This document shows, piece after piece, positions 51-10,678 of a stretch of DNA of 11,324 nucleotides. Under the pieces are notes generated by a model. The model saw nothing but the letters and a program-made list of their open reading frames with translations, had not been told where the DNA came from and did no database searches. The position numbers and the translations under genes were made by a program. How positions within the stretch are numbered: the first letter of the stretch is position 1; the number at the start of each line of letters is the position of its first letter. Source of the stretch: Candidatus Desantisbacteria bacterium CG1_02_49_89 (GTDB lineage: Bacteria > Desantisbacteria > UBA1551); NCBI GenBank assembly GCA_001871075.1, contig MNUP01000114.1, positions 1-11,324 of the forward strand, given 5' to 3'.

Positions 51-55
51 AACAG

Positions 56-79
56 TGTCAAAGTATCAGAGTATCGTAG
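56..79. repeat. 8-bp tandem repeat, three imperfect copies
   Basis: Three consecutive octamers lie at 56-63 (TGTCAAAG), 64-71 (TATCAGAG) and 72-79 (TATCGTAG), with consensus TATCAGAG. The array abuts the hairpin at 81-98. It belongs to the same class of short intergenic arrays seen in most other gaps of this window. Confidence 0.55.
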
Positions 80-1368: not shown

Positions 1369-1375
1369 GAAAAGT

Positions 1376-1410
1376 GATTCCACCGATTCTGAAAACCGAT
1401 TACTCCGATT
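1376..1410. repeat. Short imperfect repeat of CCGATT
   Basis: CCGATT occurs at 1383-1388, 1396-1401 and 1405-1410, with a partial GATTC at 1376-1380. Spacing is 13 and 9 bases, so the array is irregular. It fills most of the 48-base gap and ends six bases before the next start codon, where a ribosome binding site would be expected and is not seen. Confidence 0.45.
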
Positions 1411-6412: not shown

Positions 6413-6422
6413 GTAATAATTC

Positions 6423-6479
6423 AATGCAAAATTAAAAATGCCCCAAAGGGATTCCTTTGGAACAAAATGCAAAATTATG
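6423..6479. repeat. 12-bp direct repeat flanking a small hairpin
   Basis: AATGCAAAATTA occurs at 6423-6434 and again at 6466-6477. Between the copies CCAAAGG (6443-6449) and CCTTTGG (6454-6460) form a perfect 7-bp stem with loop GATT. The left part can be read as heptamers AATGCAA, AATTAAA, AATGCCC at 6423-6443. No T-run follows the hairpin. It sits directly after the DUF2254-like gene. Confidence 0.6.
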
Positions 6480-6493
6480 GAATAGCATTTAAA

Positions 6494-6528
6494 TTTACAT
6501 TTTACAATTTGCAATTTGACTTTTGCAA
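6494..6528. repeat. 7-bp tandem array, five copies, consensus TTTRCAA
   Basis: Five contiguous heptamers in exact register: TTTACAT (6494-6500), TTTACAA (6501-6507), TTTGCAA (6508-6514), TTTGACT (6515-6521) and TTTGCAA (6522-6528). A diverged unit, ATTTAAA, may precede them at 6487-6493. The array lies just upstream of the ribosome binding site of the DUF3307 gene. Confidence 0.65.
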
Positions 6529-6536
6529 TAGGTAGT

Positions 6537-6541
6537 AGGAG
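6537..6541 (+). promoter_or_regulatory. Ribosome binding site supporting a TTG start
   Basis: AGGAG at 6537-6541 stands six bases before TTG 6548. This spacing, and the fact that the family motif HLVAD begins only ten codons later, make TTG the likely start. The first in-frame ATG is too far inside the conserved region. Confidence 0.65.
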
Positions 6542-6547
6542 AGAAAG

Positions 6548-7261
6548 TTGTTTCTTTTCCTGAGACTGTTACTGGCGCATCTTGTAGCTGATTTCCCGCT
6601 TCAGTTCACCAAGCTTTTCAAACTGAAGTCCGAAAGCTTTAAGGGGGTGGTGCTGCACGGCTGTATTTTCGGTATAATAGCCGTGCTGTTCTCATATCCC
6701 TTCATAACCTTTTCTTTCATAGGGATGTACCTGCTTTTCCTGTGGGTATTCCATATTTTTATTGACTGGCTCAAGATCCACATGATACACAAGTGGAAAA
6801 GGGAAGACAATCTGGGCCTTTTTATCCTTGACCAGGTCCTTCATCTTATTTCCATAGCGGTCGTGATCCCGTTCACTAAAATTCAGGTCCGGACCGCCGC
6901 CGGGCTTGGGAAGCTTTATATGAACGATAAGTTCATTGTTTTCTGCATTTTCTATATCATATCCATGTTCATGGCAACGATCCTCATATATTATATGAAA
7001 AAGACATTTACCGGGAAAGAAGTTTATTTCCCAAGGAAAGGCAAGTACCGCGACATATTTGAGAGGGCGATCGTAACGACCCTTGTGGTCCTGCCGGGCT
7101 GGTACTGGGCTCTCATCCCGGTTGTCGTTGGTACTAAGGTAGCTCTATGCGCGAAGCATAATTTTAAGGAAAACGAGTATGATTATTCAATTTTCACCCT
7201 TATAGCAAGCCCGTCAATAGCCGTTATCTCGGGTTTAATACTGAGAATTTTCTTTATGTAA
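6548..7261 (+). CDS. DUF3307 family integral membrane protein
   Basis: This 237-residue polytopic membrane protein starts at TTG 6548. The DUF3307 pattern is clear: H11-L-V-A-D15 with Q19 close to the N-terminus, KGVVLHG in the next loop, H69-I-F-I-D73-W-L-K after a second membrane segment, and D95-Q96-V-L-H99 after that. These conserved polar residues (H11, D15, Q19, H69, D73, D95, Q96, H99) lie in or beside hydrophobic helices, which would suit a metal or substrate site, but no activity is established that I can cite. The N-terminal domain covers about residues 1-110; the remainder has further helices (about 127-148, 175-198, 217-237). It lies 12 bases before the HD-GYP gene and probably shares its transcript. 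A role in the neighbouring signalling module cannot be inferred from sequence. Confidence 0.75.
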   Translation: MFLFLRLLLAHLVADFPLQFTKLFKLKSESFKGVVLHGCIFGIIAVLFSYPFITFSFIGMYLLFLWVFHIFIDWLKIHMIHKWKREDNLGLFILDQVLHLISIAVVIPFTKIQVRTAAGLGKLYMNDKFIVFCIFYIISMFMATILIYYMKKTFTGKEVYFPRKGKYRDIFERAIVTTLVVLPGWYWALIPVVVGTKVALCAKHNFKENEYDYSIFTLIASPSIAVISGLILRIFFM

Positions 7262-7273
7262 GGATCTGCGGAG

Positions 7274-8893
7274 ATGAAAAAGAAGATCATGGACCCGGAA
7301 GAAGAGCTGGCCAGGGCAAAAGGGGAGCTTAAAATTTTCCACTGGCTGAGCAGGTCATGCAGTTCCGATGTCAGCATGGACGAGCTGCTTGATAAGTTCA
7401 CTGACCTCCTGCTGGAAGTTATGAAAGTAGAGGCGGGTTCCATACTGCTGCAAAGGGACAGCAGGCTCTTTTTCAAGGTCGCGAAAGGAAAGAAGGCAAA
7501 GCCGTTAAAAGAGACAGCTGTAAAACACGGCGAGGGCATAGTGGGATGGGTGGTGAAAACCGGGAAATCCGTGATCGTCCGGGATGTCAGGAAAGACAGG
7601 CGTTTTACCACTAAATTCGACGAAATTACGGGTTTCAAAACAAAGTCAATACTGGCGGTTCCGCTGAAAATGAAAGGCAGGATAATGGGGGCTATTGAGA
7701 TACTTAACCCGGCCAGGGAGCCTTTTTCCGGCGGCTCGCTTGAATTCCTGGAAAGCCTCGCATCACAGGTTGTTATAGCCATAGAAAACGTGTACCTCCT
7801 TGAAGAAACAAAGGAAAGATTCTCGGAGATGAACGCCCTTTTTGACGTCAGCCACATCATTACTTCCAGCATTGCCCAGGAAACGCTTTTGAATTCCATA
7901 ATGAGATCGGCTACCAACATGCTTGAGGTTGAAGCCATATCCCTGCTTCTGGTTGACGGGCTCACGAATGAGCTTGTTTTTAAGGTCGCGCTTGGCGAAA
8001 AAGGCCGGAAGATAAAGGAATTCAGGATCCCGATAGACGAAACAAGCATTGCCGGATGGGTCGCGAAGAACGGCAAGCCCATCATAGTAAACGACGTCAT
8101 GGAGGATACCAGGTTCAACCCGCACTACGGCCAGAAAGTCGATTTCCGGACCAAATCCATACTCTGCGTGCCGCTGAAGATAAAGGACAGGATCATTGGC
8201 GTTGCCGAGGCAATAAACAAAAAGGATGACGAAAGATTTGATTCCAGGGACCAGGACCTGTTCGCCACTGTGGCAAACCAGATCGCGATGGCCAGCGAGA
8301 ACACGAAGCTCAACCAGGACCTGGAGATCATGCTTTTCGGCACGGTCGCCTCTCTGGTAACTGCGATCGAAGCCAAGGATACATACACGAAAGGCCATTC
8401 GGAAAGGGTCACGGAATATGCGCTGATGTTGGGAAGGGCGCTGAAGTTGTCGGAAGATGAGCTGGTCATACTGCGCCTCTCAAGCCTTCTGCACGATATA
8501 GGAAAGATCGGGGTGATGGAAGGTGTGCTCAGCAAGAAGGACCCGCTTACCGAAGAAGAGTGGAAGAGCATCAGGCAGCATCCGGCTACCGGGGCGAAGA
8601 TACTTGAACCCGTTAAGCAGATATCCAACATTATTCCTTTCATACTGCACCATCACGAAAGATACGACGGCAAAGGTTACCCGGACTGCATGTCAGGGGA
8701 AGGCATCCCTCTTTTTTCCAGGATCATCGCGATAGGGGACACATTCGACGCGATGACGTCAGACCGCCCGTACAGGAAAGGGCTTTCAGCGCAGATAGCG
8801 CTGGGAGAAATAGAGAAGAACAGGGGAACCCAGTTCGACCCGCACCTTGCCGAAGTTTTTATCCAGACCTACAGGGGGAGCAATGAGTTATGA
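7274..8893 (+). CDS. GAF-GAF-HD-GYP cyclic-di-GMP phosphodiesterase
   Basis: This 539-residue cytoplasmic protein has two sensory GAF domains (about 28-165 and 197-338) and an HD-GYP domain (about 350-535), the family that hydrolyses c-di-GMP to pGpG or GMP. The metal ligands and signature are all present: H375 in KGHS, H407-D408 with K411 in LLHDIGKIG, H436 in RQHP, H460-H461, the HHERYDGKGYP signature at 460-470, and the later GDTFDAMTSDRPYR. It should therefore be catalytically competent. GAF2 carries N315-K316, F322, D326-Q327. This fits the NKFDE motif of cyclic-nucleotide-binding GAF domains except for Q in place of the last E. GAF1 has NP instead of NK. There is no membrane segment and no receiver domain, so the input is probably a small molecule. 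ATG 7274 has AGGA nine bases upstream. The 3' end overlaps the next gene by 11 bases. Confidence 0.92.
   Translation: MKKKIMDPEEELARAKGELKIFHWLSRSCSSDVSMDELLDKFTDLLLEVMKVEAGSILLQRDSRLFFKVAKGKKAKPLKETAVKHGEGIVGWVVKTGKSVIVRDVRKDRRFTTKFDEITGFKTKSILAVPLKMKGRIMGAIEILNPAREPFSGGSLEFLESLASQVVIAIENVYLLEETKERFSEMNALFDVSHIITSSIAQETLLNSIMRSATNMLEVEAISLLLVDGLTNELVFKVALGEKGRKIKEFRIPIDETSIAGWVAKNGKPIIVNDVMEDTRFNPHYGQKVDFRTKSILCVPLKIKDRIIGVAEAINKKDDERFDSRDQDLFATVANQIAMASENTKLNQDLEIMLFGTVASLVTAIEAKDTYTKGHSERVTEYALMLGRALKLSEDELVILRLSSLLHDIGKIGVMEGVLSKKDPLTEEEWKSIRQHPATGAKILEPVKQISNIIPFILHHHERYDGKGYPDCMSGEGIPLFSRIIAIGDTFDAMTSDRPYRKGLSAQIALGEIEKNRGTQFDPHLAEVFIQTYRGSNEL
8873..8878 (+). promoter_or_regulatory. Ribosome binding site inside the HD-GYP gene
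   Basis: AGGGGG at 8873-8878 precedes ATG 8883 by four bases. The reading frame could be extended to ATG 8847, but that would add twelve residues encoded entirely within the HD-GYP gene. The 8883 start gives MSYESFYHLRELPF, close to the usual ExeA-family opening. Confidence 0.65.
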
Positions 8894-9905
8894 ATCCTTT
8901 TACCATCTAAGGGAGCTTCCGTTTGCCAGCACCGTTGACCTAAGGTTCTATTTTGAGACCGATCAGTGTAAGGACGCTATTGCAAGGCTGAAGCACGCGA
9001 TAGAAGAAGGCGTAGGCCTGGGGGTTGTTATCGGAGAGATGGGCATGGGCAAAACAACCCTTGCGAAAAGGATGTTCGACGAAGCGCAGTCCCCGTCCTA
9101 CAAACCGGTGTTCCTTACGATCATACACCGTTCGGTCACTGCCAGCTGGCTTCTTAAGAAAATCGCCCTGCAAATGGACATATCATCCCTTCCGGATGAA
9201 AAATTCCTGCTGGTCGACCGCATTTACAACAGGCTCTGCGAACTCAGCGACGAGGGCATGAAAACCGTCGTATTCGTCGACGAGGCGAACATGCTGCAGG
9301 CAAAGGAGCTGCTTGAGGAATTCAGGGTGCTTATAAACCTGGAATTAAACGGTAAGAAGCTCATAAATTTCATTTTTTTCGGGTTGCCGGAAATAGATGA
9401 ATACCTTAAATTAGACGAGCACCTGCGCCAGAGGGTTGCTTCCAGGATAGTTTTGAAACCCATAGATCTGCAGTCCACCGCAGGTTACATCGGCTACAGG
9501 CTGGGCATTGCCGGGACCAACAGGAAGATCTTCACCGAGGGAGCCATAGCGCTCACCCACCATTATTCCAGGGGCATACCGCGTCTGATAAACACCCTCT
9601 GCGATAACGCTCTGCTTGAGACGTACCTCAAAAGGCAGGGCCTGATAGACGAAAAAACCATAGAGTGGGTTGCGGTCGAGATAGGCCTTAAAGAGGAAAA
9701 AGAAGTTGTGTTCAGAGAGCGCAAGCCTTTCGGCGAGATACTGATCGATGACAAACTGATAACAAAAACGCAGCTGGACAAGGCGCTTGAATATCAGAAA
9801 GAGGAAAGCATAACACTTGGCCAGGCGCTGGTGAAGCTGGATTACGTGCCCAAGGACACCATGATAGCGTACCTTAAGAAATACTATAAAACCGCATACC
9901 TTTAA
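8883..9905 (+). CDS. ExeA-like AAA ATPase with C-terminal MshEN-type domain
   Basis: This 340-residue cytoplasmic ATPase is of the ExeA/GspA type, which assists assembly or regulation of secretion and pilus machines. It opens with the family's Y-x-x-F/L-x-x-x-PF phrase (YHLRELPF). It has Walker A G51-E-M-G-M-G-K57-T58, Walker B V129-V-F-V-D133-E134-A, a sensor-like FFGLPE, and LRQRVASRI, where an arginine finger is expected. No peptidoglycan-binding domain or membrane helix is present, unlike ExeA itself. Instead, residues about 280-340 look like MshEN, the N-terminal domain of GspE/PilB-type ATPases. Two motifs are spaced 29 residues apart, counted from G284 (FGEILIDDKLITKTQLDKAL) to G313 (LGQALVKLDYV), which matches the 24-residue motif plus 5-residue linker of c-di-GMP-binding MshEN. 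The first-motif Arg is replaced by Pro 282, with R280 nearby. The gene overlaps the HD-GYP gene by 11 bases, implying coupled translation. Confidence 0.82.
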   Translation: MSYESFYHLRELPFASTVDLRFYFETDQCKDAIARLKHAIEEGVGLGVVIGEMGMGKTTLAKRMFDEAQSPSYKPVFLTIIHRSVTASWLLKKIALQMDISSLPDEKFLLVDRIYNRLCELSDEGMKTVVFVDEANMLQAKELLEEFRVLINLELNGKKLINFIFFGLPEIDEYLKLDEHLRQRVASRIVLKPIDLQSTAGYIGYRLGIAGTNRKIFTEGAIALTHHYSRGIPRLINTLCDNALLETYLKRQGLIDEKTIEWVAVEIGLKEEKEVVFRERKPFGEILIDDKLITKTQLDKALEYQKEESITLGQALVKLDYVPKDTMIAYLKKYYKTAYL

Positions 9906-9910
9906 ATACA

Positions 9911-9938
9911 GTGGTCAGCGGTGAGTGGTTAGTGGTCC
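9911..9938. repeat. 7-bp tandem array, four copies, consensus GTGGTYA
   Basis: Four contiguous heptamers in exact register: GTGGTCA (9911-9917), GCGGTGA (9918-9924), GTGGTTA (9925-9931) and GTGGTCC (9932-9938). It begins five bases after the ATPase stop and runs into the hairpin at 9935-9970. One further GCGGTGA unit lies alone at 9980-9986. Confidence 0.65.
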
Positions 9939-9989
9939 CCCTGCTTTCTCATGAAAGCAAGAAGGGGGACTCGCTTTATGCGGTGAGTG
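9918..9989. repeat. 10-bp direct repeats flanking a hairpin
   Basis: GCGGTGAGTG occurs at 9918-9927 and 9980-9989, bracketing the hairpin 9935-9970. The arrangement resembles a target duplication around a small palindromic insertion, but the left copy is also part of the heptamer array, so the resemblance may be accidental. Confidence 0.5.
9935..9970. repeat. Strong 14-bp hairpin upstream of grpE
   Basis: GTCCCCC (9935-9941) pairs with GGGGGAC (9964-9970), and TGCTTTC (9942-9948) pairs with GAAAGCA (9953-9959), around loop TCAT. The only flaw is a one-sided bulge AGAA (9960-9963). No T-run follows, so an intrinsic terminator is doubtful. In RNA it would separate the ATPase and grpE messages or protect a 3' end. 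It is not a CIRCE element. Confidence 0.65.
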
Positions 9990-9996
9990 AAAGGCA

Positions 9997-10506
9997 ATGA
10001 ACGAAAAAACAGAAGAAAAAATCGGGGATAATGAGCAGCTGCGCAGGGAAATAGAGGAAAAGAGCGCGCTGTGCAAAGAGTACCTGGACCACCTTGTGCG
10101 TCTTAAGGCGGAATTCGAGAATTTTAAAAAACGGGCTGACAAAGAAAAGCTTGAATATGTGAAATTCTCAAACGCCGACCTTATACGGCAGGTGCTGCCT
10201 GTCATTGAGAGCCTTGAGATGGGATTGGGGGCGGCTAAGAGCCTGCCGGGCGCTCAGGAGCTTGTTAAAGGCCTTGAGATGGTGGTTTCAGAACTGCAGG
10301 AGATCCTGGAAAGTAACGGCTTGACGAGGATAGAGACAAAAGGCAGGCTTTTTGACCCCCACGTTCATGAGGTAGTAGAACACGTTGAGGTATCTTCGAG
10401 CGCCGCTGAAAATGAGATCATAGAAGAAGTAAAGGCAGGATACATCCTTTACGGCAGGGTCCTGTGCCCCGCCCTTGTCAAGATTGCGAAAAAGGTTAAA
10501 AGTTAA
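9997..10506 (+). CDS. grpE: GrpE, nucleotide exchange factor of DnaK
   Basis: This 169-residue cytoplasmic cochaperone releases ADP from DnaK so that substrate can leave and ATP rebind. The N-terminal half (about 9-60) is a charged coiled-coil helix of the kind that forms the GrpE dimer stalk, including RLKAEFENFKKRADKEK. The C-terminal beta domain has L118-F-D-P-H-V-H-E125 and G148-Y-I-L-Y-G-R154-V-L-C157-P-A159, the family signature. C157 stands where most members have Arg (LRPA). Length is slightly short but normal. AAGG lies just before ATG 9997. The last codons (KKVKS) and the stop are part of a 7-bp repeat array. dnaJ follows after 182 bases of repeats, and dnaK is not between them. No CIRCE operator is visible upstream. 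Confidence 0.93.
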   Translation: MNEKTEEKIGDNEQLRREIEEKSALCKEYLDHLVRLKAEFENFKKRADKEKLEYVKFSNADLIRQVLPVIESLEMGLGAAKSLPGAQELVKGLEMVVSELQEILESNGLTRIETKGRLFDPHVHEVVEHVEVSSSAAENEIIEEVKAGYILYGRVLCPALVKIAKKVKS

Positions 10507-10533
10507 AGGTTGAAGGTTAAAAGCCAAAAGATT
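10492..10533. repeat. 7-bp tandem array, six copies, running into the grpE 3' end
   Basis: Heptamers AAGGTTA (10492-10498), AAAGTTA (10499-10505), AAGGTTG (10506-10512), AAGGTTA (10513-10519), AAAGCCA (10520-10526) and AAAGATT (10527-10533) are contiguous, with consensus AARGTTA; the last two are diverged. The first two units encode the C-terminal residues of GrpE and most of its TAA stop. Confidence 0.65.
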
Positions 10534-10535
10534 AC

Positions 10536-10569
10536 CACGAAAACACGAAAGTATCACGAAAGCACGAAA
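10536..10569. repeat. CACGAAA repeated four times
   Basis: CACGAAA occurs at 10536-10542, 10544-10550, 10555-10561 and 10563-10569. Start-to-start spacing is 8, 11 and 8 bases, so it is two octamer pairs separated by three extra bases. It directly follows the AARGTTA array. Confidence 0.65.
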
Positions 10570-10583
10570 ATTTATTATCTTGC

Positions 10584-10611
10584 TAATGACAAATGACTAT
10601 TGACTAATGAC
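10584..10611. repeat. 7-bp tandem array, four copies, consensus TAATGAC
   Basis: Contiguous heptamers TAATGAC (10584-10590), AAATGAC (10591-10597), TATTGAC (10598-10604) and TAATGAC (10605-10611) keep TGAC at exactly every seventh base. Read on the minus strand the unit is GTCATTA, which matches GTGGTTA of the array at 9911-9938 at five of seven positions. Confidence 0.65.
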
Positions 10612-10622
10612 TGCTTTTAAAA

Positions 10623-10678
10623 CACCGTAATCATCTTCAATAATCACTGTAATCATCAGTTAGAAATCACCGTAATCA
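10623..10678. repeat. 11-bp repeat, three copies spaced 22-23 bases
   Basis: CACCGTAATCA (10623-10633), CACTGTAATCA (10645-10655) and CACCGTAATCA (10668-10678) differ at one base only. The start-to-start distance is 22 and 23 bases, about two helical turns, so a protein could read them on one face of the DNA. The last copy ends ten bases before the dnaJ start, which lacks a visible ribosome binding site. Confidence 0.65.

Follow-up and report, generated by a model that had tools for sequence, protein, structure and literature searches.

The gaps between the genes of this locus hold several tandem arrays whose units differ in sequence and share a length of seven bases. What keeps the length of a repeat while leaving its sequence free is the question raised here. 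The arrays lie in an 11,324-nt stretch of DNA (hereafter, the window), contig 26 of the 2.48-Mb draft genome of Candidatus Desantisbacteria bacterium CG1_02_49_89, which was analyzed with TRF and read letter by letter. In this study, we found that the heptamer arrays resemble paired arms that belong to small selfish elements, kin to the interrupters of rRNA genes, which fill most of the gaps of this genome.

Tandem arrays in the window

A sequence-only reading of part of the window had listed four heptamer runs, and TRF calls period 7 at all four sites, some copies being degenerate. Read directly, the run at 6494-6528 is TTTACAT TTTACAA TTTGCAA TTTGACT TTTGCAA, and that at 9911-9938 is GTGGTCA GCGGTGA GTGGTTA GTGGTCC. 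The run at 10492-10533 is AAGGTTA AAAGTTA AAGGTTG AAGGTTA AAAGCCA AAAGATT, the final two copies being degenerate, and that at 10584-10611 is TAATGAC AAATGAC TATTGAC TAATGAC. The confinement of the arrays to gaps, save for the end of grpE, also holds: the array from 10491 gives the final grpE codons and the stop. A relative's GrpE has a different C-terminal end, and its gene overlaps dnaJ. Other periods stand beside the heptamers in the same gaps, namely period 8 at 10536-10570 and period 23 at 10619-10678 (TRF). The features of the window are as follows.

54-75, plus strand: octamer array of the CGTGTCA/AGTATCA family (TRF, period 8), in a gap beyond the span of the sequence-only reading; matches in other gaps.
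1369-1410, plus strand: period-22 array (GATTMCACCGATT; TRF), in a gap likewise beyond that span; found in 8 other gaps.
6413-6547, no strand: element of inverted TTTGCAA/AATGCAA arrays with a nested palindrome, filling its gap; copies in 37 other gaps, arm identical at 43/43 positions at C117:5100-5142.
6423-6443, plus strand: weak left-arm heptamers AATGCAA/AATTAAA (direct reading), complementary in kind to the TTTGCAA arm.
6440-6464, no strand: REP-like palindrome CCCAAAGGGATTCCTTTGG inside the left arm; 11 matches in 10 other gaps.
6487-6530, minus strand: right-arm heptamers TTTRCAA (TRF); found in 26 gaps.
9909-9938, plus strand: heptamers GTGGTYA, 5 nt past the ATPase stop (TRF); blast match to L134_2269_2758, E 5e-5.
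9936-9972, no strand: 37-nt palindrome CCCCCTGCTTTCTCATGAAAGCAAGAAGGGGGA adjoining the GTGGTYA array; part of a dispersed 73-nt unit.
10491-10535, plus strand: heptamers AARGTTA, source of the last grpE codons and stop (TRF); 50 matches in 25 gaps.
10536-10570, plus strand: period-8/9 array CACGAAAA; 35/35 identity at L089_1561_1778 and 34/34 at L068_4867_5096.
10583-10612, plus strand: heptamers TAATGAC (TRF); found in 14 gaps.
10619-10678, minus strand: period-23 array (AATCACCGTAATCAT..; TRF); found in 71 gaps, with a match to L083_536_625, E 7e-10.

None of the gaps of the window contains an ORF, and what they hold are arms rather than a complete ORF-bearing element. A clear inverted partner is absent for most window arrays, which stand as partial or single arms. 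Hence, the window arrays were assigned by unit and period.

Genome-wide excess of short periods

The genome-wide test covered 1.35 of the 2.48 Mb, with 191 kb of gaps and genes called with a simple codon model. Intergenic self-match reaches 0.304 at lag 7, whereas the adjacent lags give about 0.278, and the signal is echoed at 14 and 21; coding DNA of the same 1.35 Mb shows no peak at lag 7. In the 191 kb of gaps, TRF detects 189 period-7 arrays against 0.1 per dinucleotide shuffle, and therefore the gaps do hold a 7-bp excess over their own shuffled sequence. Tandem intergenic 7-bp units above chance, the defining trait of STRR and heptameric LSSR repeats, are thus present. The excess on which the sequence-only reading depended is real and genome-wide, but 7 is the commonest of several periods: TRF also finds 82 arrays of period 8 (0.6 per shuffle), 69 of period 9 (1.3), 90 of period 10 (2.3), 75 of period 14 (1.4), and 20 of period 23 (0.3). 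Array density is 0.99 per kb in gaps versus 0.074 per kb in called coding DNA.

Dispersed copies and inverted pairs

The array families of the window are dispersed, some of them in up to 71 gaps. Distant copies keep their unit variants in one order and at the same positions, as in the TTTGCAA arm (43/43, on another contig) and in CACGAAAACACGAAAGTATCACGAAAGCACGAAAA, which recurs at 35/35. The GTGGTYA array and the CCCCCTGCTTTCTCATGAAAGCAAGAAGGGGGA palindrome recur together as a single 73-nt unit at L125_4039_4536 (79% over 73 nt). The AATTATG family has 53 matches, 34 of them near-full, to a model of 104 nt; its variants occupy fixed unit positions (for example, AATGATG is the third unit), and its copies differ in length by 7-bp steps. 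The shared order and the fixed positions of the variants indicate copying, not independent slippage.

A resemblance between units, suggested earlier from a handful of heptamers, was borne out statistically, as 57 of 59 distinct heptamers fall in one single-mismatch network, versus 18 +/- 7 when shuffled. The idea that single units might be universal was dropped, since 8 of 290 genomes have the AATTATG triple array and 1 of 280 has GTGGTYA x3.5. The CTCTGTG unit is present in 9 of 145 genomes (0 for the reversed-pattern control), and CTCTGTGYCTCTGTGGT, a word of one array family, recurs in unrelated genomes, with zero for the reversed-pattern control.

The arrays are also paired in inverse orientation. 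Among 189 adjacent array pairs, 66 match better when inverted and 16 when direct, and many gaps are hairpins of ~100 bp made of an array, a short core, and the reverse-complement array. A AAGGATTTATTTAAATAAATTCCTT-like core is common to elements with AATTATG heptamers, CGTGTCAA octamers, or GATCCTG heptamers. Both arms are of one kind in 20 elements with this core and of two kinds in 2, one of which is recombinant-looking. An apparent chimera, at ~14684 of L135, has a left arm of CGTGTCAA octamers, a right arm of AATTATG heptamers, and a REP in the shared core; it looks like the product of recombination between element families.

Arms of the AATTATG family show no covariation: of 29 positions paired, they match their own partner at 23.9 and a shuffled partner at 24.6. 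Selection on RNA structure was rejected on this ground. The insertion of nested palindromes at hairpin centres was also dropped, since flank complementarity was not above shuffled. The REPs of this genome are non-periodic palindromes (GTAACTCAGGGC..GCCCTGA) nested inside array elements. On contig 23 (L061, 1824-4176), tandem REPs (TCAAACCTGAAGGTTTGAGTTACG and GTAACTCAGGGCTTTAGCCCTGA) flank two RAYT-like Y1 transposase genes; the same REPs are also nested within array elements.

IVP and GxxExxY genes between inverted arrays

The route to a carrier gene led through another genome (G040), in which CTCTGTGYCTCTGTGGT makes inverted pairs at gene junctions and one such pair (L192) brackets a GxxExxY (PDDEXK_3) ORF. 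The genome of the window has 5 GxxExxY and 11 23S_rRNA_IVP matches, 9 of the latter above the family cut-off, and no rRNA context was seen for any of these. Nearly all readable loci of both families are bracketed by inverted arrays with matching units, and the inverted flank similarity of 10 of 12 loci lies above the 95% level of 843 other genes of the genome. The flank heptamers of the IVP genes are GTGGTCA, ACGTCGT, GCTCATA, GTGTAAC, TTTGCAA, and GGGTCAT; the flank units of the GxxExxY genes are CCACGAATT, CACAGAGA, CACGGATTA, and a 23-mer. Thus, an S23/IVP (PF05635) ORF is found within the ORF-bearing elements of this genome and is absent from the gaps of the window. None of the IVP genes seen had AATTATG arms.

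Several window arrays belong to families that flank these genes. The GTGGTYA array matches the array beside the IVP gene at C96:2358-2672 (blast, E 5e-5), and the period-23 family also flanks the GxxExxY gene at C45:174-515 (E 7e-10). The match of the TTTGCAA arm to the flanks of the S23/IVP gene at C6:5460-5756 was judged by eye. The CGTGTCA octamer stands ahead of the IVP gene of C25, and the period of the CACGAAAA array falls in the range of the GxxExxY elements.

The same layout in other bacteria and viruses

Homologues of IVP were found mostly on cyanobacterial plasmids; taken together, the plasmid hosts are Nostoc, Anabaena, Calothrix, Pseudanabaena, Geminocystis, Gemmatirosa, Azospirillum, and Riemerella. 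Most IVP loci on these plasmids and on two viral contigs have inverted arrays of heptamers. In all, the pattern is seen in Cyanobacteria, Bacteroidota, Gemmatimonadota, a 23S rRNA IVS of Azospirillum, and viral contigs. Over own and external loci, the inverted flank score averages 24.7 for IVP, against 12.1 for mismatched partners, and 25.3 for GxxExxY, against 11.9. The complementary terminal arms that characterize an IVS are therefore found around the IVP genes.

The period of the arms follows the class of the gene. In the 150-nt flanks of all loci, an external sample that is small and heavy in Cyanobacteria being included, 36 of 47 TRF arrays beside IVP genes have period 7, 14, 21, or 28, and 16 of 17 beside GxxExxY genes have period 8-11 or 23. 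Control pieces ~330-480 nt away contain any array in 11 of 81 cases, and TRF called no array at three GxxExxY and two IVP loci. Pooled self-match of the IVP arms is 0.536 at lag 7 and 0.488 at lag 14, versus about 0.28 elsewhere, and the unit sequence differs at nearly every IVP locus. Repeat length thus appears to be set by the protein class of the element.

Several IVP genes split one system: nrdB/nrdA, cas6/cas4, cas10/cmr3, or an Fe-S assembly gene and sufB. On three cyanobacterial plasmids (L217, L220, and L224), the IVP gene interrupts CRISPR-cas operons between cas6 and cas4 or between cas10 and cmr3; heptamer arrays flank it clearly in L217 and L220 and more weakly in L224. The Azospirillum copy (L227) lies within a 23S rRNA gene as a classical IVS with heptamer arms, and is the only one located in rRNA. 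Carriage by phages was considered and rejected: no IVP was found in 50,697 phage records, and 2 IVP loci were found in 2.9 million viral contigs.

Gene junctions and comparison with a relative

The arrays occupy gene junctions, at medians of 14 nt past the stop and 32 nt ahead of the start. We compared one relative, Ca. Desantisbacteria CG1_02_38_46 (G001; L139), which shares the window locus and whose neighbouring ATPase is 77% identical. It has 1 period-7 array in 131 gaps, and no IVP or GxxExxY match. At 18 syntenic array-bearing junctions, the median gap is 146.5 bp here versus 14.5 bp in the relative; the ATPase-grpE gap measures 91 bp versus -4 bp (an overlap), and the grpE-dnaJ gap 182 bp versus -26 bp (also an overlap). 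Syntenic gaps with no called array are likewise longer here (76 versus 6.5 bp), which is consistent with decayed elements, although not proof of them. As polarity rests on a single relative with no outgroup, we infer gain in the present genome from the element-like structure.

An initial excess of target-site duplications was gone once the arrays were masked (junction score 5.45, observed and shuffled), and such duplications were rejected. The gene-orientation bias of the whole genome is extreme, with 740 of 765 gaps lying between co-directional genes. Specificity for operons was also discarded: of the 34 near-full AATTATG copies, 33 are flanked by co-directional genes and one is at a contig end, but the gaps as a whole are distributed likewise.

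Origin of the arrays

Altogether, our results suggest that the arrays are probably the terminal arms of IVS-like insertion elements at gene junctions, most of these arms being solo or lacking an ORF, and that the elements form two parallel classes. Class 1, of the 23S rRNA IVS type, would carry a 23S_rRNA_IVP/S23 (four-helix-bundle) ORF between inverted tandem arrays of 7-bp units; class 2 would have a like layout with a GxxExxY ORF (PD-(D/E)XK superfamily), its units measuring about 8-11 or 23 bp. The elements may enter junctions as units, both neighbouring genes surviving, and the ORF-less hairpins may derive from, or be mobilized in trans by, the ORF-bearing elements. Units of 7 bp would later be gained or lost in the arms by slippage. 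If the machinery of the element recognizes or rebuilds the paired arms by spacing rather than by sequence, both arms would drift in unit sequence and still keep their unit length. The sequence-only reading had proposed a single mechanism that fixes length and leaves sequence free. The tie of the 7-bp length to one entity with free sequence stands (36/47 IVP-flank arrays), but the arrays were not each built in place, being dispersed copies of the arms of inverted-array elements, and the 8-11 and 23-bp arrays belong to the second class, GxxExxY.

The arrays might instead be MITE- or REPIN-like repeats moved by a resident transposase unrelated to IVP and GxxExxY, such as a RAYT-like Y1 enzyme. 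The genome has ten Y1_Tnp matches, and the true REPs that flank two Y1 genes are nested in array elements. However, none of the nine Y1 genes examined has a period-7 array within 800 bp, target-site duplications are lacking, and across phyla the inverted arrays flank IVP and GxxExxY genes. This origin is therefore unlikely, and Y1/RAYT was rejected as the mobilizer of the arrays. Around the Y1 genes, both copies on C23 are flanked by REPs, and a period-8 array lies near one fragment at a contig end.

Independent polymerase slippage in place, with 7 bp favoured by polymerase geometry, was proposed by Mrazek, as quoted in PMC4679880 and PMC4692102. In many genomes, heptamers do outnumber the other long simple repeats, and the 7-bp length steps among AATTATG copies agree with it. 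Yet slippage leaves several facts unaccounted for: distant loci keep unit variants in one order (35/35, 43/43), arrays are paired inversely (66 against 16 of 189 adjacent pairs), the abundant periods 8, 9, 10, and 23 go with another ORF class, and the gap as such is missing from the relative. Copy number may still be adjusted by slippage; as the origin of the arrays, slippage is not supported, and we regard it as quite improbable. That the arrays are selected regulatory RNA or protein-binding sites between cistrons, as MacGregor proposed for the TAACTGA repeats, is very improbable, and a functional RNA is not supported: the location between stop and start codons (medians 14 and 32 nt) and the strong hairpins would suit such a role, but 97% of all gaps are co-directional, so that operon placement of the arrays is not special, units differ at nearly every site, compensatory covariation is absent, Shine-Dalgarno-like motifs are no commoner (175/365 versus 146/278 other gaps), and no Rfam match was found.

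Relation to known repeats and implications

If the arrays are arms of IVS-like elements, the closest known system is the 23S rRNA IVS. In Salmonella, forms of about 100 nt that lack an ORF are known. The IVS with an S23/IVP ORF of Coxiella and Leptospira (PMC4990558) shares with our elements the inverted terminal arms, the ORF in the loop, and the arm heptamers; in Coxiella, 3-4 GACAGAT heptamers precede the S23 ORF, and their number varies among strains. Unlike these, the elements described here occur between protein genes, as do the window and family copies, rather than in rRNA helices; their hundreds of copies mostly lack an ORF and have many different unit sequences. Because the copies lie between protein genes and only L227 is in 23S rRNA, we term them IVS-like, not rRNA IVS. 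In the literature searched, we found no generalization of the IVS heptamer arms.

The parallel drawn earlier with the STRR heptamers of cyanobacteria is apt, since STRR-like heptamers flank cyanobacterial IVP genes (L214, L217, and L219). Both are tandem gap heptamers with several unit sequences per genome, but the descriptions of STRRs treat them as free-standing arrays rather than as arms of an element, and further periods are present here. The TAACTGA repeats of Beggiatoaceae (PMC4679880) and the GGGNATC repeats of Xanthomonas and Nostoc (PMC4692102) are also many intergenic heptamer arrays in scattered phyla; in those studies there was one main unit per genome and no element was proposed. 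REP/REPIN sequences with RAYT are short dispersed gap palindromes, present in this genome too. Period-7 arrays differ from them in not flanking the Y1 genes examined, and it is the non-periodic REPs that do so at C23.

For decades, reports of heptamer arrays have come from scattered bacteria and have offered slippage or regulation as the only explanations, while IVP and GxxExxY are widespread families of unknown role. Joining the families with the arrays gives both a context, that of class-specific selfish elements with tandem-array arms entering gene junctions. It also provides a rule testable on existing genomes, IVP with 7 and GxxExxY with 8-11, and points to a possible route by which IVSs reach rRNA genes. 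In this sense, our results suggest that, in genomes of this kind, much of the DNA between genes is debris of elements and not regulatory sequence.

A more far-reaching idea, which we hold to be doubtful, is that IVP (Avd-like), possibly aided by a polymerase or reverse transcriptase, makes DNA or measures it in 7-nt steps and rebuilds matching inverted arms. The element class would then program repeat length and leave sequence free, and a single mobile system of this kind would account for the heptamer satellites seen in cyanobacteria, Xanthomonas, Beggiatoaceae, and candidate phyla alike. IVP matches bAvd (PF22296), the protein that accompanies the reverse transcriptase in diversity-generating retroelements, weakly (E 7e-6, below the cut-off), but the genome has a single partial reverse-transcriptase match, on another contig, so that a retro-mechanism is speculation. 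The IVP profile also matches the Xanthomonas protein XCC0516 (PDB 2gsc), which offers a lead. Finally, another genome (G009; C2, C3, C7, C12, and C13) has 19 IVP-like matches, many of them divergent pairs on opposite strands with ~200-400 bp between the two members, a layout that suggests a putative inverse duplication of the coding sequence.
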